In this document: in pieces, positions 11,637 through 21,498 of the stretch
Position numbering within the stretch: the first letter of the stretch is position 1
Layout: the number at the start of each line of letters is the position of its first letter
Assembly (NCBI RefSeq): GCF_003337555.1
Contig: NZ_QPJK01000001.1
Span: forward strand, 496,001-560,000
Origin: Pseudorhodoferax soli
GTDB taxonomy: Bacteria; Pseudomonadota; Gammaproteobacteria; Burkholderiales; Burkholderiaceae_C
Direction: 5' to 3'
DNA: 64,000 bases
The notes under the pieces: generated by a model
Told to the model about the DNA's origin: nothing
What the model saw: the letters and a program-made list of their open reading frames with translations, nothing else
Databases searched by the model: none
Program-made: the position numbers and the translations under genes

Positions 11637-14567
11637 ATGATCGAAACGCTGCCGCCCGCCCCTGCCCTCCCCACGGATCTGGCCGTGGTGCAGCGGCGCC
11701 ACTACGTCACGCTGCTGTTCTCCGATCTGTCGCGCTCGACGGAACTGGCCGGCGCCATGGAGGCCGAGCAGTACGCCACGCTGCTGTCCATGCTGCGCAT
11801 CGCCTACCAGGAAACCGTGCCGCGCTGGGGCGGCACCATCGTGCGCGTGCAGGGCGACGGCCTGCTGGCCATGTTCGGCCACCCGGTGCCGCACGAGGAA
11901 GCCGGGCGCCGCGCGGTCGAGGCCGCCCTGGCGCTGCACCGGGCCGTCGGCAGGCTGGCGCCACAGCTGCCAGCGGGATTCATGCTGCAGCTGCACACCG
12001 GCATCCACGCCGGCCTGGTGCTGATCGGCGATGGCGACATCGAGCGGGGCCGCTTCGAGCTCATGGGCACGGTGCCCAACATCGCTGCCCGGCTGTCCGA
12101 CGCCGCCGGCCCGCACGAGATCGTGGTCAGCGACGAGACGCTGGGGCCAGCGCGCCGCTTCTTCGGGGCCGGCGCGCCCAGCATGCTCATGGTCAAGGGG
12201 CGCGACGCGCCGATCCTGGTCTACCGCATCGGCAGCCAGGCCGAGACCCTGGCCGGCGTGCAGGCACGCAGCCGCAAGCAGGCGCCGCTGGTGGGCCGGC
12301 AGGCCGAGTTCGAGCGGCTGGCGCACGCGCTCGACGCGGCCTTCGCCGGCGCGCCGGCCGGCGTCGAGGTGGCCGGGCCGCCCGGCATCGGCAAGACGCG
12401 GCTGGTCGAGGAATTCCTGCACCATGCCCACCAACGCGACTGCCGTGTGCTGCGCGGCAGCTGTGACAGCGGCCTGGGCGCGGCGCCGCTGCAGCCGTTC
12501 CGCCAGATGATGCAATCGCTCGGCACGGCCGAGCTGCCGGCGCGCCCGCACGCCTTCGCGGCCGCCTTCCAGCGGCTGGCGGCCGAGCAGCCGCTGGTGC
12601 TGTTCATCGACGACTGGCAGTGGGCCGACGATGCCTCGCACCAGGTGCTGGCCGGCATCCAGCGCGAGGCCGGATTGCGCCTGCTGGTGGTGCTGACCCG
12701 GCGCGTGGTCGGCAGCGCCGCCGCGCCGGCCGCCCCCGGCTTCGACACCGTCACGCTGGCGCCGCTGGTGCAGGCCACGGCCGCCGAAGCCGTGGCCGCC
12801 TACCTGCCCGGCGCCGACCCCTTCGTGGTGGCGCAGATCTGCGCCCGCGCCGGTGGCAACCCGTTGTTCATCGAGGAGCTGTGCCATTCCGCCGCGCATG
12901 GCGACAGCGGCCGGCTGGCGCCCCCGCCCAGCCCGGCCGGCTGGATCAACCAGCTCATCGAGTCGCGCGTGCAAGGCCTGGCCGCGCCGCTGGTGGACAT
13001 GCTGCGCACCGCGGCCGTGATCGGCAACACCGTGCCGGCCTGGCTGCTGGCACGCATCACCGGCCATGGACCGGACGGCCCGCTGCTGCGCGAATTGGCC
13101 GAGCAGGACTTCCTGTTCCCGGGCGAGCATGCCGGCACGCTGCGCTTCAAGCACGGTGTCACGCGCGACGTCGTGTACGCCTCGGTCGGCCTGCTGCAGC
13201 GCCAGTGGCTGCACCTGCGCATCGCCGTGGCGCTCATGCAGCAGGCCCAGGCCGGCGCCCAGGAGGATGCCGAGGCCCTGGCCCTGCACTTCGGTGCAGG
13301 TGGCGACCCGGCCCTGGAGGCGCACTACGCCGAGCTGGCCGGCGACCGCGCGCTGGCCGTCTCGGCGCTGGACCGCGCCCGCGCACACTTCCACGCTGCG
13401 CTGTCGGCCTTGGAACGGGGCGAGCTGACAGGCGAACGCGCGCTGCGCTGGGTCGACATCGTCGAGAGGCTGGCCATGGTTTGCATGTTCGAGCCCGAGC
13501 GCGGCCAGATCGCGCTGGCCGAGCGGGCCGTGGAGCTGGCCCAGCGCCATGGCGACCTCGGGCGCGTGGCGCGCGCACGCCACTGGCTGGGCTGTGTGCA
13601 CTATGCGCTGGGCGATCCGCGCCAGGCCATCCGCCACGGCGAGCAGGCTTTGCGCGAAGCCGAGGCCGCCTCCGACGCGCCGCTCGCCACGCAGGTCGTG
13701 GCCTCGCTCGGCGAGGCCCATACCGCGGCCGGGCGCTACGAGCGGGCCGCCCAGCTGCTGGACCGCGCCATCGAGGTCAAGCGCAGCCACCGCAGCGGCC
13801 GGCGGACCAATGTGGGCCTGGCCTACTCGCTGGTCTGCCGCGGCGTGGTGCTGGGTGACCAGGGGCGCTTCGGCGCCGCAGCCGCATGCTTCGACCAGGC
13901 GCAGGAATGCATCGTCGGGATCACCCACCAGATCGGCACCAGCATCGAAGGCTGGCGCGCGGCCGTGCTGCTGTGGCAGGGCCGCTGGGAGGCCGCGCAC
14001 CAGGCCGCCGCCACATCCGCCCGCATCGCCGAGGCGACGCGCTCGCTGTGGCAGCTGTCGGTGGCACGTGCCATCGGCGGCTATGCCGACTGGATGCTGC
14101 GGCGCGACCCTGCGGCCATCGAAGGCCTGGTGGCCGTCACCGACTGGGTGCTGCCGCGCGACAGCGGCCTGTTCCGCTCGCTCAACCACGGCTGGCTGGC
14201 AGAAAGCCTGCTGGCCCTGGGGCGGCCTGACGAGGCGCGCCGGCACGCCTTCCTGGCCCTGCAGCGCGGCCGCCGCGAAGACCGCATCGGACTGGCCATG
14301 GCGGCGCGCGCGATGGCGCGCGCAGCCCATGCGAGCGGCCAGCACGCCGCCGCACAGCGCCAGCTGGCCTTCGCCCACCGCGTGGCACAGGCGCGCGGCG
14401 CGGCGCACGAGCGGGCGGTGACGCAGCTGGCCGAGGCCGAACTGGCGGCCGCCAGCGGCGACGGCACCCGCGCAGGCGCGCTGCTGGCCGAGGCCGAGGC
14501 GGCGTTCGACACCATGGACATGGCCTGGCACCTGGAACAGGCGCAGCGGCTGCGCGCGCAGCTCTGA
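11637..14567 (+). CDS. Class III nucleotide cyclase with AAA and TPR domains
   Basis: A 976-residue soluble signalling protein. Residues about 22-200 are a class III adenylate/guanylate cyclase domain with metal aspartates D30 (LFSDLSRST) and D74 (VQGDGLLAMF) and the transition-state NxxAR motif (PNIAARL). Residues about 220-560 are an AAA-type ATPase with Walker A GPPGIGKT near residue 250 and Walker B LVLFIDDWQWAD. The remaining ~400 residues are helical TPR-like repeats. This architecture is common in proteobacteria, usually without a known ligand. The key catalytic residues look intact. Adjacency to a photolyase-like gene is noted, but a light link is speculation. Confidence 0.9.
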   Translation: MIETLPPAPALPTDLAVVQRRHYVTLLFSDLSRSTELAGAMEAEQYATLLSMLRIAYQETVPRWGGTIVRVQGDGLLAMFGHPVPHEEAGRRAVEAALALHRAVGRLAPQLPAGFMLQLHTGIHAGLVLIGDGDIERGRFELMGTVPNIAARLSDAAGPHEIVVSDETLGPARRFFGAGAPSMLMVKGRDAPILVYRIGSQAETLAGVQARSRKQAPLVGRQAEFERLAHALDAAFAGAPAGVEVAGPPGIGKTRLVEEFLHHAHQRDCRVLRGSCDSGLGAAPLQPFRQMMQSLGTAELPARPHAFAAAFQRLAAEQPLVLFIDDWQWADDASHQVLAGIQREAGLRLLVVLTRRVVGSAAAPAAPGFDTVTLAPLVQATAAEAVAAYLPGADPFVVAQICARAGGNPLFIEELCHSAAHGDSGRLAPPPSPAGWINQLIESRVQGLAAPLVDMLRTAAVIGNTVPAWLLARITGHGPDGPLLRELAEQDFLFPGEHAGTLRFKHGVTRDVVYASVGLLQRQWLHLRIAVALMQQAQAGAQEDAEALALHFGAGGDPALEAHYAELAGDRALAVSALDRARAHFHAALSALERGELTGERALRWVDIVERLAMVCMFEPERGQIALAERAVELAQRHGDLGRVARARHWLGCVHYALGDPRQAIRHGEQALREAEAASDAPLATQVVASLGEAHTAAGRYERAAQLLDRAIEVKRSHRSGRRTNVGLAYSLVCRGVVLGDQGRFGAAAACFDQAQECIVGITHQIGTSIEGWRAAVLLWQGRWEAAHQAAATSARIAEATRSLWQLSVARAIGGYADWMLRRDPAAIEGLVAVTDWVLPRDSGLFRSLNHGWLAESLLALGRPDEARRHAFLALQRGRREDRIGLAMAARAMARAAHASGQHAAAQRQLAFAHRVAQARGAAHERAVTQLAEAELAAASGDGTRAGALLAEAEAAFDTMDMAWHLEQAQRLRAQL

Positions 14568-14685: not shown

Positions 14686-17600
14686 TCAGGCGGTCGCGGG
14701 CACCGCCACCTTGGGCGTCAGGATCAGCAGCACTGGCGAACCCGTCGGCCGCAAGGTGCCCGCTTGCAGCAGCGCAGCAGCCATGGCCAGCATCACACCC
14801 ACGCCCATGCGCGAGCCCGGGCAGGCGTGCAGGCCCCAGCGGTCGGTGCCAGGCGCAAAGTAGTCGCCGCCGAACAGCAGTGCGTCGCGGCGGGCCTGCT
14901 CTCCAGGTGGCAGGCTTTCGATGGCCGAGGCCAGGCCCAGCACCACGGTGGCGTCGGGGTCGGGTTGGCCGTCCACCACGGGGCGGCGCCAGACCATGGG
15001 CGGCACCGGCTCGGCCTGCATGGTGTCCAGCATGGGCCGCCACAGTGCGGCACGCGCCGTGGCCAGCGGCCCCTCCTCGGCCAGCGTGCGCTCGGCCAGG
15101 TCCTGCTGCAGCGACCACAGCCGGCCATCCTCGATCCAGTTCTTCATGACCGTCAGGAAATTGCCGTGGACCGTGGGTGCGAAGCCCAGCAGCAGCCCGG
15201 TGATCTCGCGCTCCAGCAGGTCCGGGCCATGCGCCTGGCCGAGCGCGGCCAGCCCGGGACGCAAGGCCGCCACCAGCCCGGGCGAGGCGCCGCCGGCCAG
15301 TTGGTCCTTGACCGCCTGCAGCACCATGGGCCCGTGCAGTTCGCCCTCGGCAGTGACATGCACCTGCGGATGGGCGCCGAAGACCATGCGCGAGGGGCCG
15401 ATGATGTGCCCGGGGCAACGCGGCTTGCCCTGCGGGTCGGGCGTGGGACTGCGCCCGCCGACGACCATGTTCTGGCCATCGGGCAACCCGAACCAGAGCT
15501 TGGACAAGGCGCCGACCACCTGCTCGGAGAAGCCCATGAGGTCGATCGCCACGCGCACGCGGCCGTCGGGGTGGCGCAGCGCGAAGGCCCCGCTGGAGGC
15601 ACGCACGGTCTCGGCCAGCACGGCCTGCGCCACAGCGCTGGCGGCGGCGAAGGCCTGGGCTTCGCCGATGCTGGCGACCGCCGCGTTCACCACGGGGCCG
15701 ACCTCCTTGTGGCCGTCTGCCGGGTCCATGCCCAGGTGGTTCACGCCGAGCGAGGCCTCCATGCGTTCGCCGAAGCCCTGCACCGAGAAGTGCTTGCACG
15801 GCGCATCGGCCAGCGCCGGGAAGACCTTGCCGGCCGTGCCGAGCAGGCGCCCATAGGGCTCGGCGTGCTGCTCGCCGCCATGCTGCTCGCGCACGGCGCG
15901 CCAGGTGGCGCGGCCGTTGTCGCGGTCCTCGAGCCGGTTGCGCCACGCGTCGAGCGCGCTGGACGGCACGGGCGCCGGCGCCAGCACGGGCTCGGGTGCG
16001 CTGCGGAAGTCGGACAGCCGCTCCAGTGCCGCCAGCGCGGGCACGAACAGGTACAGGCCCCACTGCAGTTCGACTAAGGCCTTGTCGCCCAGGTCGGCGC
16101 GCTGCGGTGCGCCGCAGTCATCCACCCAGCGGAACACGCGCGGCTGGCCCGCGCGCGGCACGCCCAGCAAAGGGTCGGACTGGGTCGAGCCCACGCCGGA
16201 GCTGTTGCCGCCGGCCAGCCAGCGCTGCACGGTCTCGTACTGCTCGGCGATGCTGGCGCAGTAGGCCATGAAGAGGATGCCGCGGTCGGCCTCGGGCGGT
16301 GCCTCCAGCGAGGCCGGCCCGTAGCCCATGCCACGGCGCAGGATGCGCGGCAGGCCGGGCTGGCCGTCGCGCGGGTTGGCACGCCGCACGTGCGAGGAGA
16401 ACGGGCATTGCGCCTGGTCGGCGCCGCGGTAGCGGAAGTCGTTGTCGCCGCCCGGGCCGCTCGCCACCAGCGGCTTGCCGTCCTGGCGGCGGCCCATCAT
16501 GCGCTCGAGCAGCTCGGTGCGGCGCTGCGCATCGCCCTCGGCGTAGTCTTCCAGCGCGGCGTGGAGGTGGTCCAGCCGCTGGCGCAGCTTGCGCACGACG
16601 AGGAAGCTGCCGCGGTCGAGCAGGCCGTCGGCCTCGGCCGGGTACGGGCCGTCGCCGCGGTCGTTGGCGAAACCGAGCACCAGTTCGCCGGGGCGCACCT
16701 GGTGCTGGCGCGGATAAGGCGACGTGTCGGGTGCCGGATCGGGCGTGAGTTCGGGCGCGACCATGGGCTGGCTGATGCCGTCGACGAAGCCGAAATGCTC
16801 GCGGCCGTCGGGGGCGGTGGTCCGGCTGCGCGTGGGTTCCACGGCCAGCACCGCCAGGCCCGTGCCCTGCCCCAGCACCCGCACCGCACCCTGGATCAGG
16901 GGGTGCAGGCCGTGGCCTTCGTCCGCGGTGTCGATGGTGCGCATCATGATTGCCACGTGCACCACGCCGAGTTCGATGCGGTCCTCGCGCGCCGGGTCCA
17001 CGCCATGGCGCAGCGGGCGGTGCCAGTGGTCGGGGTGGTTGCCACGCAGGTCGCCCAGCAGGCCGGCGCGCGGCTCCATGCCTTCGGCGAATTCGGCCGG
17101 CAGGCGGTCCAGCCGCTCGGGGTCGATGTGCAGCGCGCGCAGGCCGGCCATCGTGAAGCCGATGTGCAGGCGCACCTCGCCCTCGGCCGCCGCCGGCGCG
17201 GCGCAGCGCGGCGCCAGCGTGGCCAGGTGCTCGGCGGCACGCTGCGGATCGGTCACGCGCAGCAGCACCAGCGCGCCATGCGTGGCGCGCAGGCCCTGGC
17301 CCAGCACGGCGGCCTGCAGCGCGTCCGGGTTCCAGGCCAGCCGGTCGGCCGGCACCGGCTCGGGCAGCGGGCGGGCCAGCCAGGCCAGTTCGTCGGCGAA
17401 CAGCTTCTTGATGAGCGGCACCTGGGGGTGCTGGTTGAAGGCCTCTGTCGCCAGCGTGGATTGCAGCCCCTTGAGCGCGAGGTGGGCAAAGCGCAGCAGG
17501 ATGTCGCCATCGGCGCCGGCCCACCAGCCGGTCAGGCGGTACAGGCCCTTGAGCGTGCGCAGGTGCAGCGGCAGAAACCCTTCCAGGTCGCCGAGCATGC

Positions 17601-18213
17601 GCTCCAGGCCCTGGCGCGTGGCGCTCAGTGCGTCGGGTTCGGCATGGGCGGCGATGGCCCGGTCGGCCTGCGCCGGGTCTCCGCTTTCGCGCTGCAGGCG
17701 CTCCACGCTGGCCAGGTAGCGCTGGTCGGACAGGGTGGCCGGGCCGTCGGTGTAGAAGATGCCGGCATCCTGCTCGGCGCTGCGCACCCAGCGGCAGTAG
17801 GTGTCGAAATCGCTGGTGCGCGAACCGGGGTAGCCCTCGCAGTGGCACAGCAGCGCGTCCAGCAGGGGGCCGATGTCGCGGTAGATGACCCGCATGTAGG
17901 GCTCCCAGCCGCCGTCGAAGCTCACGTTCAACGACAGATGCCAGGACTTGGAGCCGACCAGCGCAGGCGGCACCAGCGCATAGCGAAAGCCGCTGATCAT
18001 GTTGAAGCGGCCGACCGGGTCGGGGAAGGCCGAGTCGCGCAGCTCGGATTCGCGCGCGTTGCGGCGCGAGGAGTGCATCGCATCCAGCAGGCGGCGCAGC
18101 CGCTCCAGGTAGCTGATGGGTTCGAAGCCAGGGGCCAGGCCCTCGCGGACGCGCGCCTGCAAGGCAAGGTTGGTGATGCCAGCAAGGCCGCTGCCGCGCA
18201 CGTGGTTGCGCAT
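14686..18213 (-). CDS. DyP-type peroxidase fused to P450-like haem domain
   Basis: A 1175-residue protein with three parts. Residues about 1-290 match no family I recognise. Residues about 310-720 are a dye-decolourising peroxidase with GFVDGISQP (catalytic Asp about 478), the proximal haem ligand in SSHVRRANPR (His about 608) and the distal Arg in RILRRGMGYG (about 626). Residues about 760-1175 resemble cytochrome P450: an I-helix-like LLLGFAPTVHGNF and a haem-thiolate loop, DRWGLHACPGSR (Cys about 1131). A canonical ExxR motif is not evident. There is no signal peptide, so it is probably cytoplasmic. The ATG at 18213 has CAGGGA upstream, and in-frame sequence further upstream belongs to the gap. 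A sigma-54 activator lies just upstream. Likely substrates are hydroperoxides or lipids, by analogy only. Confidence 0.82.
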   Translation of the reverse strand: MRNHVRGSGLAGITNLALQARVREGLAPGFEPISYLERLRRLLDAMHSSRRNARESELRDSAFPDPVGRFNMISGFRYALVPPALVGSKSWHLSLNVSFDGGWEPYMRVIYRDIGPLLDALLCHCEGYPGSRTSDFDTYCRWVRSAEQDAGIFYTDGPATLSDQRYLASVERLQRESGDPAQADRAIAAHAEPDALSATRQGLERMLGDLEGFLPLHLRTLKGLYRLTGWWAGADGDILLRFAHLALKGLQSTLATEAFNQHPQVPLIKKLFADELAWLARPLPEPVPADRLAWNPDALQAAVLGQGLRATHGALVLLRVTDPQRAAEHLATLAPRCAAPAAAEGEVRLHIGFTMAGLRALHIDPERLDRLPAEFAEGMEPRAGLLGDLRGNHPDHWHRPLRHGVDPAREDRIELGVVHVAIMMRTIDTADEGHGLHPLIQGAVRVLGQGTGLAVLAVEPTRSRTTAPDGREHFGFVDGISQPMVAPELTPDPAPDTSPYPRQHQVRPGELVLGFANDRGDGPYPAEADGLLDRGSFLVVRKLRQRLDHLHAALEDYAEGDAQRRTELLERMMGRRQDGKPLVASGPGGDNDFRYRGADQAQCPFSSHVRRANPRDGQPGLPRILRRGMGYGPASLEAPPEADRGILFMAYCASIAEQYETVQRWLAGGNSSGVGSTQSDPLLGVPRAGQPRVFRWVDDCGAPQRADLGDKALVELQWGLYLFVPALAALERLSDFRSAPEPVLAPAPVPSSALDAWRNRLEDRDNGRATWRAVREQHGGEQHAEPYGRLLGTAGKVFPALADAPCKHFSVQGFGERMEASLGVNHLGMDPADGHKEVGPVVNAAVASIGEAQAFAAASAVAQAVLAETVRASSGAFALRHPDGRVRVAIDLMGFSEQVVGALSKLWFGLPDGQNMVVGGRSPTPDPQGKPRCPGHIIGPSRMVFGAHPQVHVTAEGELHGPMVLQAVKDQLAGGASPGLVAALRPGLAALGQAHGPDLLEREITGLLLGFAPTVHGNFLTVMKNWIEDGRLWSLQQDLAERTLAEEGPLATARAALWRPMLDTMQAEPVPPMVWRRPVVDGQPDPDATVVLGLASAIESLPPGEQARRDALLFGGDYFAPGTDRWGLHACPGSRMGVGVMLAMAAALLQAGTLRPTGSPVLLILTPKVAVPATA

Positions 18214-18319: not shown

Positions 18320-19819
18320 TTACGTGGCGCCCTGCAGCCGGCCATACAGGGTAGCGCGCGAGATGCCGAGCAGCCGCGCGGCCGCCAGCTTGTTGCCACC
18401 GGTTTCGGCCATGGCCGCGGCGATGGCGAGCCCCTCCAGTTCGGCCACCTGCGTGGCCAAGGGCCGCAGCAGCGCGGCGTGGCCCTGGCCCTCGGGCGCA
18501 GGCGGCAGCGCGGCGGCGGCGATGGCCTCCACACCGGTCTCGGCCAGCACGCGGCGCACCTCGGCCGCGTCCACGCGCTGGCTGTCGCTGCGCATGGCCA
18601 GTTGCTCGAGCACATTGCGCAGCTCGCGGATGTTGCCGCGCCAGTGCTGGCCGGCCAGCAACGCCAGCGCATCGGGCATCAGCTCCGGCGGGACTTCGCC
18701 GCTGCGCTGGGCCAGGTCTTCGCTGAGCGCCTCCACCAGGGCCGGAATGTCGCCGCGGCGTTCGCGCAGCGGCGGCAGCTTGAGCGGCAGCACGTTGAGC
18801 CGGTAGTACAGGTCTTCACGGAAGCGCCCCTGGCGCACCAGCGCTGGCAGGTCGCGCGAGGTGGCGGCGATCACGCGCGCATCGAACGGCACCAGCCGGT
18901 TCGAGCCCAGCGGCTCGATCTCGCCCTCCTGCAGCGCGCGCAGCAGTTTGGCCTGCAACGCGGCCGGCATGTCGCCGATCTCGTCCAGGAACAAGGTGCC
19001 GCCGTCGGCCAGCTTGAACTTGCCCTCGCGCCCGCGCCGGTCGGCGCCGGTGTAGGCACCGGGCGCCACGCCGAAGAACTCGGCCTCCAGCAAGGTGTCG
19101 GGCACGGCCGCGATGTTCAGGCTCACGAACGGGCCGCGCGCGCGCGCCGACGCCAGGTGGATGGCGTGGGCCAGCAGTTCCTTGCCGGTGCCGGTCTCGC
19201 CGAGCAGCAGCACCGGGCTGGACGACTGGGCCGCGCGGCGCGCGTGGCGCTTGACCTCCAACGCCGCCGCGCTCGTGCCGATGAAGCTGGCAAAGGTGTA
19301 CTTGGCACGGCGCTGCCCGGAGCCGCCATCGCCATGCAGCAGGGCCCGGCTGCGCTGGCTGGCCAGCTCGCGGCGGGCGTCGTCCAGGTCGCGCTGCAGC
19401 AGCGCGAACTTCTCGATCAACGGCTTGAGCGTGGTCTCGGGCTGGTCGAACAACACGATGCCGATGGCGCCGATGGTCTGGCCGTCTTCCTCGCGCAGCG
19501 GAATGCGGCTGACCACGAACGTGCCGGCCTTGTTGGTCAGGAGGTCCACCAGGATGGGCTCACCGGTCTCCAGCACACGGCGCATCTGGGTGTTGGGGAT
19601 GACCTCCTCGACCGGATGGCCCTGGAATTCGTCGATGCTGGAAAAGCCCAGCGCCGGCAGGAAGCGCCGGTAGCCCTCGTTGACCCAGACGATGGTGCCG
19701 GCCTTGTCGACCAGGAACATGCCCTGGCTCATGCTGGAGAACAGGTGGAACATGGAGCGCGCGGCCAGCGCCAGCATGCTGCTGGCGTCGGGCGGCAACG
19801 CGGATTCGGTGGCGGGCAT
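18320..19819 (-). CDS. Sigma-54-dependent transcriptional activator with PAS domain
   Basis: An activator of about 499 residues. A PAS-type sensor domain (about 15-130) is followed by a coiled linker and an AAA+ domain with Walker A GETGTGKE, Walker [12 protein letters not shown] and the sigma-54 contact loop, which reads GAYTGA rather than GAFTGA. A Fis-type helix-turn-helix ([22 protein letters not shown]) closes the protein. There is no receiver domain, so the signal probably enters through PAS. The start is uncertain: ATG at 19819 or an in-frame GTG at 19840, neither with a strong ribosome binding site. It lies immediately upstream of the DyP-P450 gene on the same strand and is its likely regulator. 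Confidence 0.88.
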
Positions 19820-19919
19820 CGGGGCATGGTAACGGTGCACCGACGACGGCCCGGCGCGCCGCGACGGTGCGCCGTTGGCCTACAAAACCGGTCATCCAGC
19901 AGGCGCACAATGGGCCGCG

Positions 19920-20472: not shown

Positions 20473-20784
20473 TCAGCCGCAGGCGACCTTGGTGATGCGG
20501 CTGCGGCCGTCCAGCGTCAGGTTGAGGCGCGCCGGGTTGAACTCCATGGTCACGGCCTGGCCAGGGCTGAGCCAGCGCACGATGCTGGCGCCCGAGCGGG
20601 CCCGCACGTCGCGCTCCAGCGTCGGGCCGAACGACTGGCCGACGGCGAACTGCGCGGCAGCGGCATCGCAGGTCGCAGGCAGGGCCGATGCCCCAGGCGC
20701 GCCGGGCCGTTCGCCCAGGCCCGCACACCCTGCCAATGCCAGCACGGCCGCGGCGGCCCCCCATTGCTTCATGCCTGTTTTCAT
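20473..20784 (-). CDS. I78-family peptidase inhibitor lipoprotein
   Basis: About 103 residues. A lipoprotein signal peptide (VLALAGC) is followed by a domain of about 70 residues with the I78 pattern: CDAAAAQFAVGQ near its start, VRWLSPGQAVTMEFNPARLNL, and the end SRITKVACG. Proteins of this family resemble small serine-protease inhibitors. It converges on the small lipoprotein gene with only 2 bp between stop codons. The start could also be the ATG at 20772. Confidence 0.75.
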   Translation of the reverse strand: MKTGMKQWGAAAAVLALAGCAGLGERPGAPGASALPATCDAAAAQFAVGQSFGPTLERDVRARSGASIVRWLSPGQAVTMEFNPARLNLTLDGRSRITKVACG

Positions 20785-20925
20785 GCGCCGCATGCTATGC
20801 CACGATCGAGCGACGCCGGAAACCCCCTTACCACGGCCAGGTACACTCTTGCCCGCTGTTACGTCCTCCGTTCGGTGGATGACAAGCGGTTCTGGCATCC
20901 TTGATGCTTGCCCGCTCCCCCAAGA

Positions 20926-21117
20926 ATGCGAGCCATGCGCAGCGCCCCCGAGTTCCTCCACGACAAGCCGTTGGTGAAAGCCACCGCCTTTCCACCGCCT
21001 CCGCCGCGCGTGCCTTCGCTGTGGCGGCACGTCCGCGTGACATTCGTGCTGCACGCGCTGGCGATGGTCACTGTGCTCACCGCCATCACGGCGCTGATCG
21101 AGCGCGCTGCGCCCTGA
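20926..21117 (+). CDS. Hypothetical small membrane protein
   Basis: About 63 residues with no family I recognise. A short basic and proline-rich N-terminus (FPPPPPR) is followed by one hydrophobic segment, FVLHALAMVTVLTAITALI, suggesting a single-pass inner-membrane protein. The start is uncertain (TTG 20908, ATG 20926 or ATG 20935), and no strong ribosome binding site is visible. It is followed after 12 bp by another small unknown gene on the same strand. Confidence 0.5.
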   Translation: MRAMRSAPEFLHDKPLVKATAFPPPPPRVPSLWRHVRVTFVLHALAMVTVLTAITALIERAAP

Positions 21118-21129
21118 ATTCCACACTGC

Positions 21130-21498
21130 ATGTCTGACACCGGCCGAACTGGGCCCCGCTACATCGAAGAACGGCTGGAACAGCTCGAACGCAGCAACGA
21201 GGAGTTGCTGGGCCTGGTCACGGCACTGACGGCGGTGACCACCGCGCTGGCCGCGACCCATCCGCAACGCGCCGTGCTGCACGAGGCCCTGGCACGTGCC
21301 GCGCCCGGCGTGCGCCAGGCCACGCAGCAGCACGGCATGAGCGAGCGCACACAGATGGTGCTGGAGGCATTCACCAATCTGCTGCACCAGACGCTGACCG
21401 AACCGCAACCGGCCAGGCTGGACGAGGCCAAGCAGGTCATCCAGGCCTTCTTGCAGCATCCACCCGAGAGCGACCCCCGGGATCATCCGGAGTCCTGA
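21130..21498 (+). CDS. Hypothetical helical protein
   Basis: A 122-residue, mostly helical soluble protein of unknown function. The segment near residues 10-30 (RYIEERLEQLERSNEELLGLV) looks like a short coiled coil, so it may oligomerise. It has no signal peptide and no cysteines. It lies in a run of three small unknown genes on the plus strand that ends at a terminator. Confidence 0.6.
   Translation: MSDTGRTGPRYIEERLEQLERSNEELLGLVTALTAVTTALAATHPQRAVLHEALARAAPGVRQATQQHGMSERTQMVLEAFTNLLHQTLTEPQPARLDEAKQVIQAFLQHPPESDPRDHPES

Follow-up and report, generated by a model that had tools for sequence, protein, structure and literature searches.

Can one bacterial protein chain hold two haem enzymes, and what might they do together? 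This question is raised by an open reading frame of Pseudorhodoferax soli (genome, 8.16 Mb) at positions 14686-18213, minus strand, of the window, by which we mean the whole stretch of 64,000 nucleotides from contig NZ_QPJK01000001.1 that was analysed. The frame runs from an ATG at 18213 to a stop codon at 14686-14688 and encodes 1175 amino acids. By sequence and structural model, the chain comprises three modules: an N-terminal domain of a novel type (N-domain), a DyP peroxidase and a divergent haem-thiolate P450. We see an even chance that it represents a new bacterial dual-haem family performing a self-sufficient two-step, oxylipin-like oxidation of lipids, convergent with the fungal dioxygenase–P450 fusions, a chemistry that we infer.

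The fusion gene is genuine and recurs in Pseudomonadota

The original prediction, made from the sequence by itself, placed a DyP site and a P450-type loop in a 1175-residue frame; both the frame and the positions of D478 (in GFVDG), H608 (in CPFSSH), R626 and C1131 (in HACPG) are correct. Profile searches and structure prediction, which it had proposed as checks, were carried out, and the DyP–P450 fusion was confirmed by profiles, by an AlphaFold model of the full-length protein (pLDDT 85.7, pTM 0.84) and by conservation.

Among 299 family genomes, 50 match the fusion protein and 26, including that of P. soli, encode the three domains in one frame; in 23 of the other 24 the similarity is to the DyP part, and in one it is confined to 54 residues of the P450 part. 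A pattern scan covered 84,980 species at one genome each; it detects close N-domain relatives only, overlaps in part with the 299 family genomes and returned 78 loci, all from Pseudomonadota by title. Their hosts include Variovorax, Ramlibacter, Roseateles, Pelomonas, Paucibacter, Rubrivivax, Bradyrhizobium and sphingomonads, among others. Sixty-eight loci are complete, every one with the order N-DyP-P450, and the remaining 10 run into a contig end. Residue counts below refer to an alignment of 68 sequences, namely the window protein and 67 of the 68 complete loci, with L113 omitted as a near-copy of L112 (loci and regions carry L numbers). The closest fused relatives in it (92-96% identity) belong to three Pseudorhodoferax strains and to one that is labelled Variovorax boronicumulans.

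A sequencing or assembly error that joined two genes, named beforehand as the outcome that would overturn the prediction, is excluded because all 68 uncut loci share the three-domain frame, as do the 26 family genomes. A phage origin was rejected, a scan of viral contigs with the N-domain having found no relative. A plasmid origin was likewise rejected: 74 plasmid records match, none covering 80% of the query in one place. One plasmid, pDB-1 of Sphingopyxis sp. DBS4 (L033:2941-8391), carries what appears to be a truncated copy: its DyP–P450 frame is missing the N-domain and the start of the DyP domain, and it immediately follows a gene for a Tn3 family transposase.

A complete DyP peroxidase site

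The middle domain (residues 290-740, positions 15994..17346) is a DyP-type peroxidase by profile, by fold and by its active-site residues. TIGR01413 matched residues 468-684 (E 5.9e-27) with 94.8 bits, slightly below its curated cut-off of 100.5, and PF20628 matched above its cut-off (E 8.4e-9); PF04261, another DyP model, had no match anywhere in the genome at E<=0.001. DyPs of the PDB align over residues 290-736, the best being the D. radiodurans DyP 8re3 (E 1.5e-29). When the whole model was compared with the PDB by Foldseek, the best 50 of 721 rows were all DyP-type proteins, with a TMt of 0.78 for 8re3.

The original prediction of a complete DyP site is borne out by conservation, with each of three residues present in 68/68 sequences: D478, the distal aspartate of GXXDG (16780..16782); H608 (16390..16392), which we take from family knowledge to be the proximal haem ligand; and R626 (16336..16338), which we take on the same grounds to be the distal arginine. 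The domain thus resembles DyP-type peroxidases, of which 8re3 is the closest solved one among the matches listed, in fold, sequence, GXXDG motif, proximal histidine and distal arginine. It differs in context: the solved proteins among those matches measure 296-493 residues, whereas this DyP is flanked by a further domain on either side.

A P450-like domain with an unusual active site

The C-terminal domain (residues 741-1170, positions 14704..15993) is invisible to Pfam as a P450, because none of 24 single sequences (24 of the 26 at hand) matched PF00067 at E<=1. Profile comparison gave a different picture. A profile of the C-terminal domains, searched against 177,635 PDB sequences, returned 59 rows, all of them P450s and six at E<=0.001; they include NzeB, NascB, AspB, TamI and sterol demethylases, which we take to be P450s. 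The best match was the P450-like protein 4tpn, presumably the tryptophan-nitrating P450 TxtE. By hhalign, the profile aligned with six P450-like proteins over 340 columns (probability 98.2%, E 2.7e-14) with the Cys loops in register; the six were drawn by profile search, and four of them are confirmed by PF00067, the remaining two being L039 and L042. The same profile scored 2.8% against DyP as a negative control. Separate profile searches thus uphold the P450 similarity predicted for the C-terminal part, and we regard the domain as a P450 homologue, albeit one that lacks a direct PF00067 match.

The structural evidence points the same way. In the AlphaFold model, helices at residues 999-1028, 1049-1067 and 1134-1150 occupy the positions of the P450 I, K and L helices. 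Foldseek against viral models, whose rows carry no aligned range, returned five proteins named P450 (ranks 3, 4, 5, 9 and 11; probability 0.96-1.00), a 'Cytochrome 450-like' protein at rank 6 and one DyP at rank 7, with nameless proteins at ranks 1 and 2. The PDB Foldseek search is neutral on this domain, because its best 50 of 721 rows were only DyP-type.

The haem-thiolate loop, FGG...HACPG, spans residues 1114-1133 (14815..14874), with the codon of C1131 at 14821-14823. It is longer than the canonical loop. C1131, H1129, F1114, G1115 and R1076 are invariant (68/68), and G1133 occurs in 65/68; the loop proposed around Cys 1131 therefore stands, its cysteine kept in every sequence. The absence of a clear ExxR, also part of the original prediction, was confirmed. 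Alignment with unfused relatives places the ExxR columns at residues 1063 and 1066, where the window protein has D and Q in a degenerate K-helix motif, DTMQ (residues 1063-1066, 15016..15027). Within the fused family, E and R occur together in 1/68, E in 1/68 and R in 19/68. A full ExxR is present in 32/32 control P450s, in 7/7 unfused P450s linked to a DyP, with L030 counted among these 'operon' cases although its P450–N frame lies beside the DyP frame, and in 6/6 fusions of permuted order. ExxR is not a strict requirement of P450s: CYP157 proteins, in the motifs quoted from PMC3599690, also keep the Cys loop without a full ExxR. Those motifs retain Glu and lose Arg, whereas in the fused family Glu is found in 1/68 and Arg in 19/68; the family also differs in having Pro at the position of the I-helix acid and in the fusion itself.

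This proline, P1013 (15175..15177, in GFAPT), takes the place of the I-helix acid in 66/68 members of the fused family, while the threonine is retained in 58/68. It is shared by 20 of the 21 DyP-linked P450s in our tree set, as against none of the 32 controls, 30 of which have Asp or Glu; the controls comprise 29 of 30 high-scoring PF00067 loci (L196, the P450 of L148, was dropped) and three loci from the profile search. The predicted I-helix accordingly lacks the acid–alcohol pair usual in monooxygenases. In the P450 tree, the 21 DyP-linked P450s separate from the 32 controls with support of 97/94; the placement of five long-branched rows, which include L030, is unsure.

A conserved N-terminal domain

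Residues 1-286 (17356..18213) form an N-domain of no known family, as the original prediction had said of the first 290 residues or so: it is conserved, and neither Pfam nor the PDB sequences gave a match. Across 55 sequences, it keeps the motif FDGGWEPYMR and invariant residues R38, E55, Y106, R108, D119 and W142. Modelled alone, it reached a pLDDT of 87.7, and Foldseek of this model against the PDB found no fold at E<=0.001. A match to 5xzq, a hydroxynitrile lyase with the fold of a dimeric alpha+beta barrel (probability 0.66, E 0.87), is suggestive only. The domain as a duplicated DyP half or a piece of a P450 is unsupported (hhalign probabilities, 0.04% and 0.16%). A central part, the N-core (about residues 60-182, 17668..18036), contains FDGGWEPYMR and is common to the unfused modules described below.

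The modules occur as neighbours and in a second fusion order

The N-core was found in 23 of 349 phylum genomes, including that of P. soli, and regions of 14-18 kb each were taken from 20 of the other 22. In all 20, the N-core is fused to a DyP or is encoded on the same strand no more than about 1.1 kb upstream of one. Six regions (L148, L155, L156, L158, L159 and L163, with L155 and L156 close kin) have separate same-strand genes in the order N-(N)-DyP followed by P450. Five (L149, L150, L151, L152 and L157) encode the order P450–N–DyP in one protein, and one, L161, is an N–DyP–P450 fusion. L030 has a P450–N frame followed at once by a DyP frame. Two hydrophobic stretches separate P450 from N in the three P450–N–DyP regions tested and in L032.

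The order P450–N–DyP is found again in L032 (L032:3244-7515, on plasmid p2 of Pararhizobium qamdonense), a protein of 1423 amino acids. It is annotated only as cytochrome P450, so that its peroxidase half is hidden in the public annotation; its gene is flanked by a cyclase–TPR gene on the upstream side and by a Crp/Fnr gene on the downstream side. A second, weaker copy of the N-core was also observed between the first copy and the DyP, as a separate gene at L148:9004-9726 and L155:4718-5341 and in tandem within one frame at L154:7514-8818 and L162:8127-9632.

In a DyP tree of 54 rows, 31 of them fused N-DyP-P450 proteins, the two fusion orders form separate clades (support, 100/100 and 98/94); L031 was grouped there as 'other' although an N-like frame lies nearby. 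The modules are adjacent, or fused in the other order, elsewhere in Pseudomonadota, and we therefore conclude from these comparisons that their fusion arose at least twice. The three modules very probably act together, in the manner of Rosetta-stone evidence, since the same three also occur as neighbouring genes and in a separate fusion with a different order.

Lipid-related genes near the modules

Four fused homologues (L022, L023, L025 and L161) carry a C-terminal GDSL-type hydrolase domain behind the P450, with GDSW in 4/4 and a late DxxH in 3/4. Among the unfused modules, L155:4075-10390 is a compact same-strand run encoding N, N, DyP, a patatin phospholipase, P450 and FadL, which appears to be the best unfused lead to a substrate of lipid type; the order N, N, DyP, P450 recurs in L156. 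Weaker hints come from an esterase-like DUF676 protein and a GMC oxidoreductase near L162 and from a GMC oxidoreductase near L154. Neighbours were scanned in part for 15 of the 20 regions, and no ferredoxin or P450-reductase family was found in the selected neighbouring frames scanned.

A cyclase neighbour of the fused lineage

Downstream of the fusion gene and convergent with it, positions 11637..14567 of the plus strand encode a 976-residue protein with class III nucleotidyl cyclase, AAA_16 and TPR parts, the only full-length copy of such a gene in the P. soli genome. A homologue lies downstream at 61/78 loci. Of the 17 loci without one, the available DNA ends within 1,163 bp at 11 and runs on for over 6 kb at six (L066, L072, L075, L078, L080 and L091), so that the count becomes 61/67 once the 11 short-flank loci are set aside. 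The gap between the two open frames has a median of 22 bp and is at most 500 bp at 51/61 loci; the genes are convergent at 59/61 and on the same strand at 2/61, both in Bradyrhizobium. The cyclase partnership appears to belong mainly to the fused lineage, because only L166 among the 20 other module regions has a homologue; L161, of the fused kind, shows none in its remaining 1.4 kb.

The cyclase domain, like Pycsar cyclases, matches the PADLOC PycC models (best E 3.5e-13). The neighbour differs from them in its cyclase–AAA–TPR architecture, and no Pycsar effector model matched either the fusion protein or the cyclase protein. We read the PycC match as probable general similarity among class III cyclases, not as Pycsar membership. 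A defence system was rejected as a reading of the fusion protein, which had no PADLOC match at E<=0.01.

On the other side of the fusion gene, just upstream and on the same strand, positions 18320-19840 (-) encode a PAS–sigma-54 activator–Fis regulator. Further on, the frame at 20473-21486 (-) has a C-terminal end that matches peptidase inhibitor I78.

Discussion

Fungal dioxygenase–P450 fusions of the PpoA type, which include linoleate diol, epoxy alcohol and allene oxide synthases, likewise place a haem peroxidase-type domain before a C-terminal P450 in one chain. DyPs belong to another superfamily, evolved independently of the peroxidase-cyclooxygenase superfamily. The fungal peroxidase comes from the latter, according to the excerpted text of PMC4420034, whereas the bacterial one is a DyP; the extra N-domain, the bacterial host and the loss of ExxR also set the P. 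soli protein apart. The HxC loop, of bacterial type in the fused fungal P450s, and an altered I-helix are common to both groups, as far as the excerpted text of PMC13049297 goes. For the I-helix, within substrate recognition site 4 (SRS4), this 2026 paper quotes PTxxG...NQxQ in 5,8-linoleate diol synthases (5,8-LDS) and (V/A)PxT or TPxG in allene oxide synthases (AOS) fused to a 9-dioxygenase (9-DOX), with (V/A)PxT for 9S-AOS. Likened by these quoted motifs alone, the fungal enzymes resemble the GFxPTVHGN of the bacterial fusion, and the proline at the acid position would be a similar kind of change to that in hydroperoxide-isomerising P450s. On the bacterial side, the link to lipids is an indirect one, given by the GDSL-type tails of four members.

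Two-step oxylipin synthesis by bacterial haem proteins has a precedent in the 10S-DOX and 7,10-diol synthase of P. aeruginosa (excerpts of PMC4496055 and PMC5155153). There the work is shared by two relatives of the di-haem cytochrome c peroxidases, with neither a DyP nor a P450. No published account of a DyP–P450 fusion was found among the titles and abstract openings listed from the literature searched, a library without preprints and most subscription papers. The parts of the protein are ordinary and the whole is new, to all appearances a further variant among peroxidase–P450 fusions with a presumptive chemistry.

Our favoured reading, lipid oxidation in two steps, would work as follows. 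The DyP domain would use H2O2 to oxidise a hydrophobic substrate such as a lipid, or else start radical chemistry that lets O2 add to the substrate. The P450, without the acid of normal O2 activation, would then rearrange the resulting (hydro)peroxide or be driven by it, in the way of the fused fungal P450s and with no reductase, and the product would be an oxylipin-like compound. The cyclase–AAA–TPR neighbour may couple this pathway to nucleotide signalling. A DyP site and a P450 cysteine that are both intact in 68/68 sequences, the repeated fusion, the lipase-type tails and the loss of the I-helix acid all support this reading. The original prediction had proposed a convergent analogue of the fungal oxylipin synthases; the lipase-type domain behind the P450 in four homologues and the patatin and FadL genes of the unfused cluster lend weight to it, as do the second fusion, of different order and in a separate clade, and the altered I-helix.

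Several points weigh against lipid oxidation. The lipase-type tail is rare, occurring in three of the 26 family genomes (L022, L023 and L025) and in L161; L025 alone of the four passes the Pfam cut-off, and no tail longer than 48 aa occurs in the 68 complete scan loci or the window protein. Patatin and FadL appear together in one of the 15 partly scanned regions, L155, and most neighbours elsewhere are unrelated or carry no identification. In eight of the 20 N-DyP regions, no P450 was seen within the 14-18 kb. Without ExxR, the P450 domain may bind its haem weakly. We know of no DyP that acts as a fatty-acid dioxygenase, and the proposed chemistry is itself read from sequence and model. A fuller version holds that bacteria, independently of fungi and at least twice, evolved a single-chain oxylipin synthase, in which the DyP would make a lipid hydroperoxide (a new DyP reaction), the acid-less and ExxR-less P450 would rearrange it, the lipase domain of some members would supply the fatty acid, the new N-domain would bind or channel the lipid and the dedicated cyclase would read or control the product; possible as this is, we think the chances are against it.

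The two haem domains might instead form a tailoring enzyme for natural products or aromatics, oxidising a substrate other than a lipid (a phenol, an indole or a lignin-like compound) one after the other, each with H2O2, and with the P450 as a peroxygenase. DyPs act on aromatic substrates, the selected neighbours scanned include no reductase, the GMC oxidoreductases near the unfused modules L154 and L162 are possible makers of H2O2, and 4tpn, the best PDB profile match, is presumably TxtE. We nonetheless judge such an enzyme rather improbable, as the GDSL-type fusions and the patatin and FadL genes point to lipids, and the widespread one among the recurring neighbours identified in the fused lineage is the cyclase. 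That neighbour invites the thought of a sensor, in which the haem domains would sense peroxides or gases and pass the signal to the cyclase–AAA–TPR protein, with catalysis in second place. Its closeness to the fusion gene (within 500 bp at 51/61 loci, convergent at 59 and same-strand at 2), its uniqueness as a full-length copy in the P. soli genome and the Crp/Fnr genes near L032 and L033 fit a signalling unit; the invariance of the DyP catalytic residues in 68/68, the lipase tails, which fit an enzyme, and the restriction of the cyclase homologue to L166 among the 20 other regions make it quite unlikely.

We hold it very unlikely that the P450 domain has degenerated into a haem-free scaffold and that the DyP alone is active. 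The loss of ExxR across the fused family (1/68 retain it) would suit such a scaffold, and the excerpted PMC13049297 describes a fungal 10R-DOX whose fusion partner has no haem-thiolate ligand. A decaying site would not be expected to keep C1131, H1129, F1114, G1115 and R1076 in 68/68 sequences, and the CYP157 proteins, in the quoted portion of PMC3599690, are likewise without a full ExxR.

If lipid oxidation by the fused family is borne out, a peroxidase–P450 fusion would have arisen convergently from a different peroxidase superfamily, making the pairing of both haem chemistries a repeatable solution, and DyPs, whose natural roles are largely open, would be tied to a definite partner and to a probable class of substrate. 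The family brings to light P450s unseen by Pfam together with a new conserved domain. The enzyme may need no reductase, which would make it attractive for biocatalysis.

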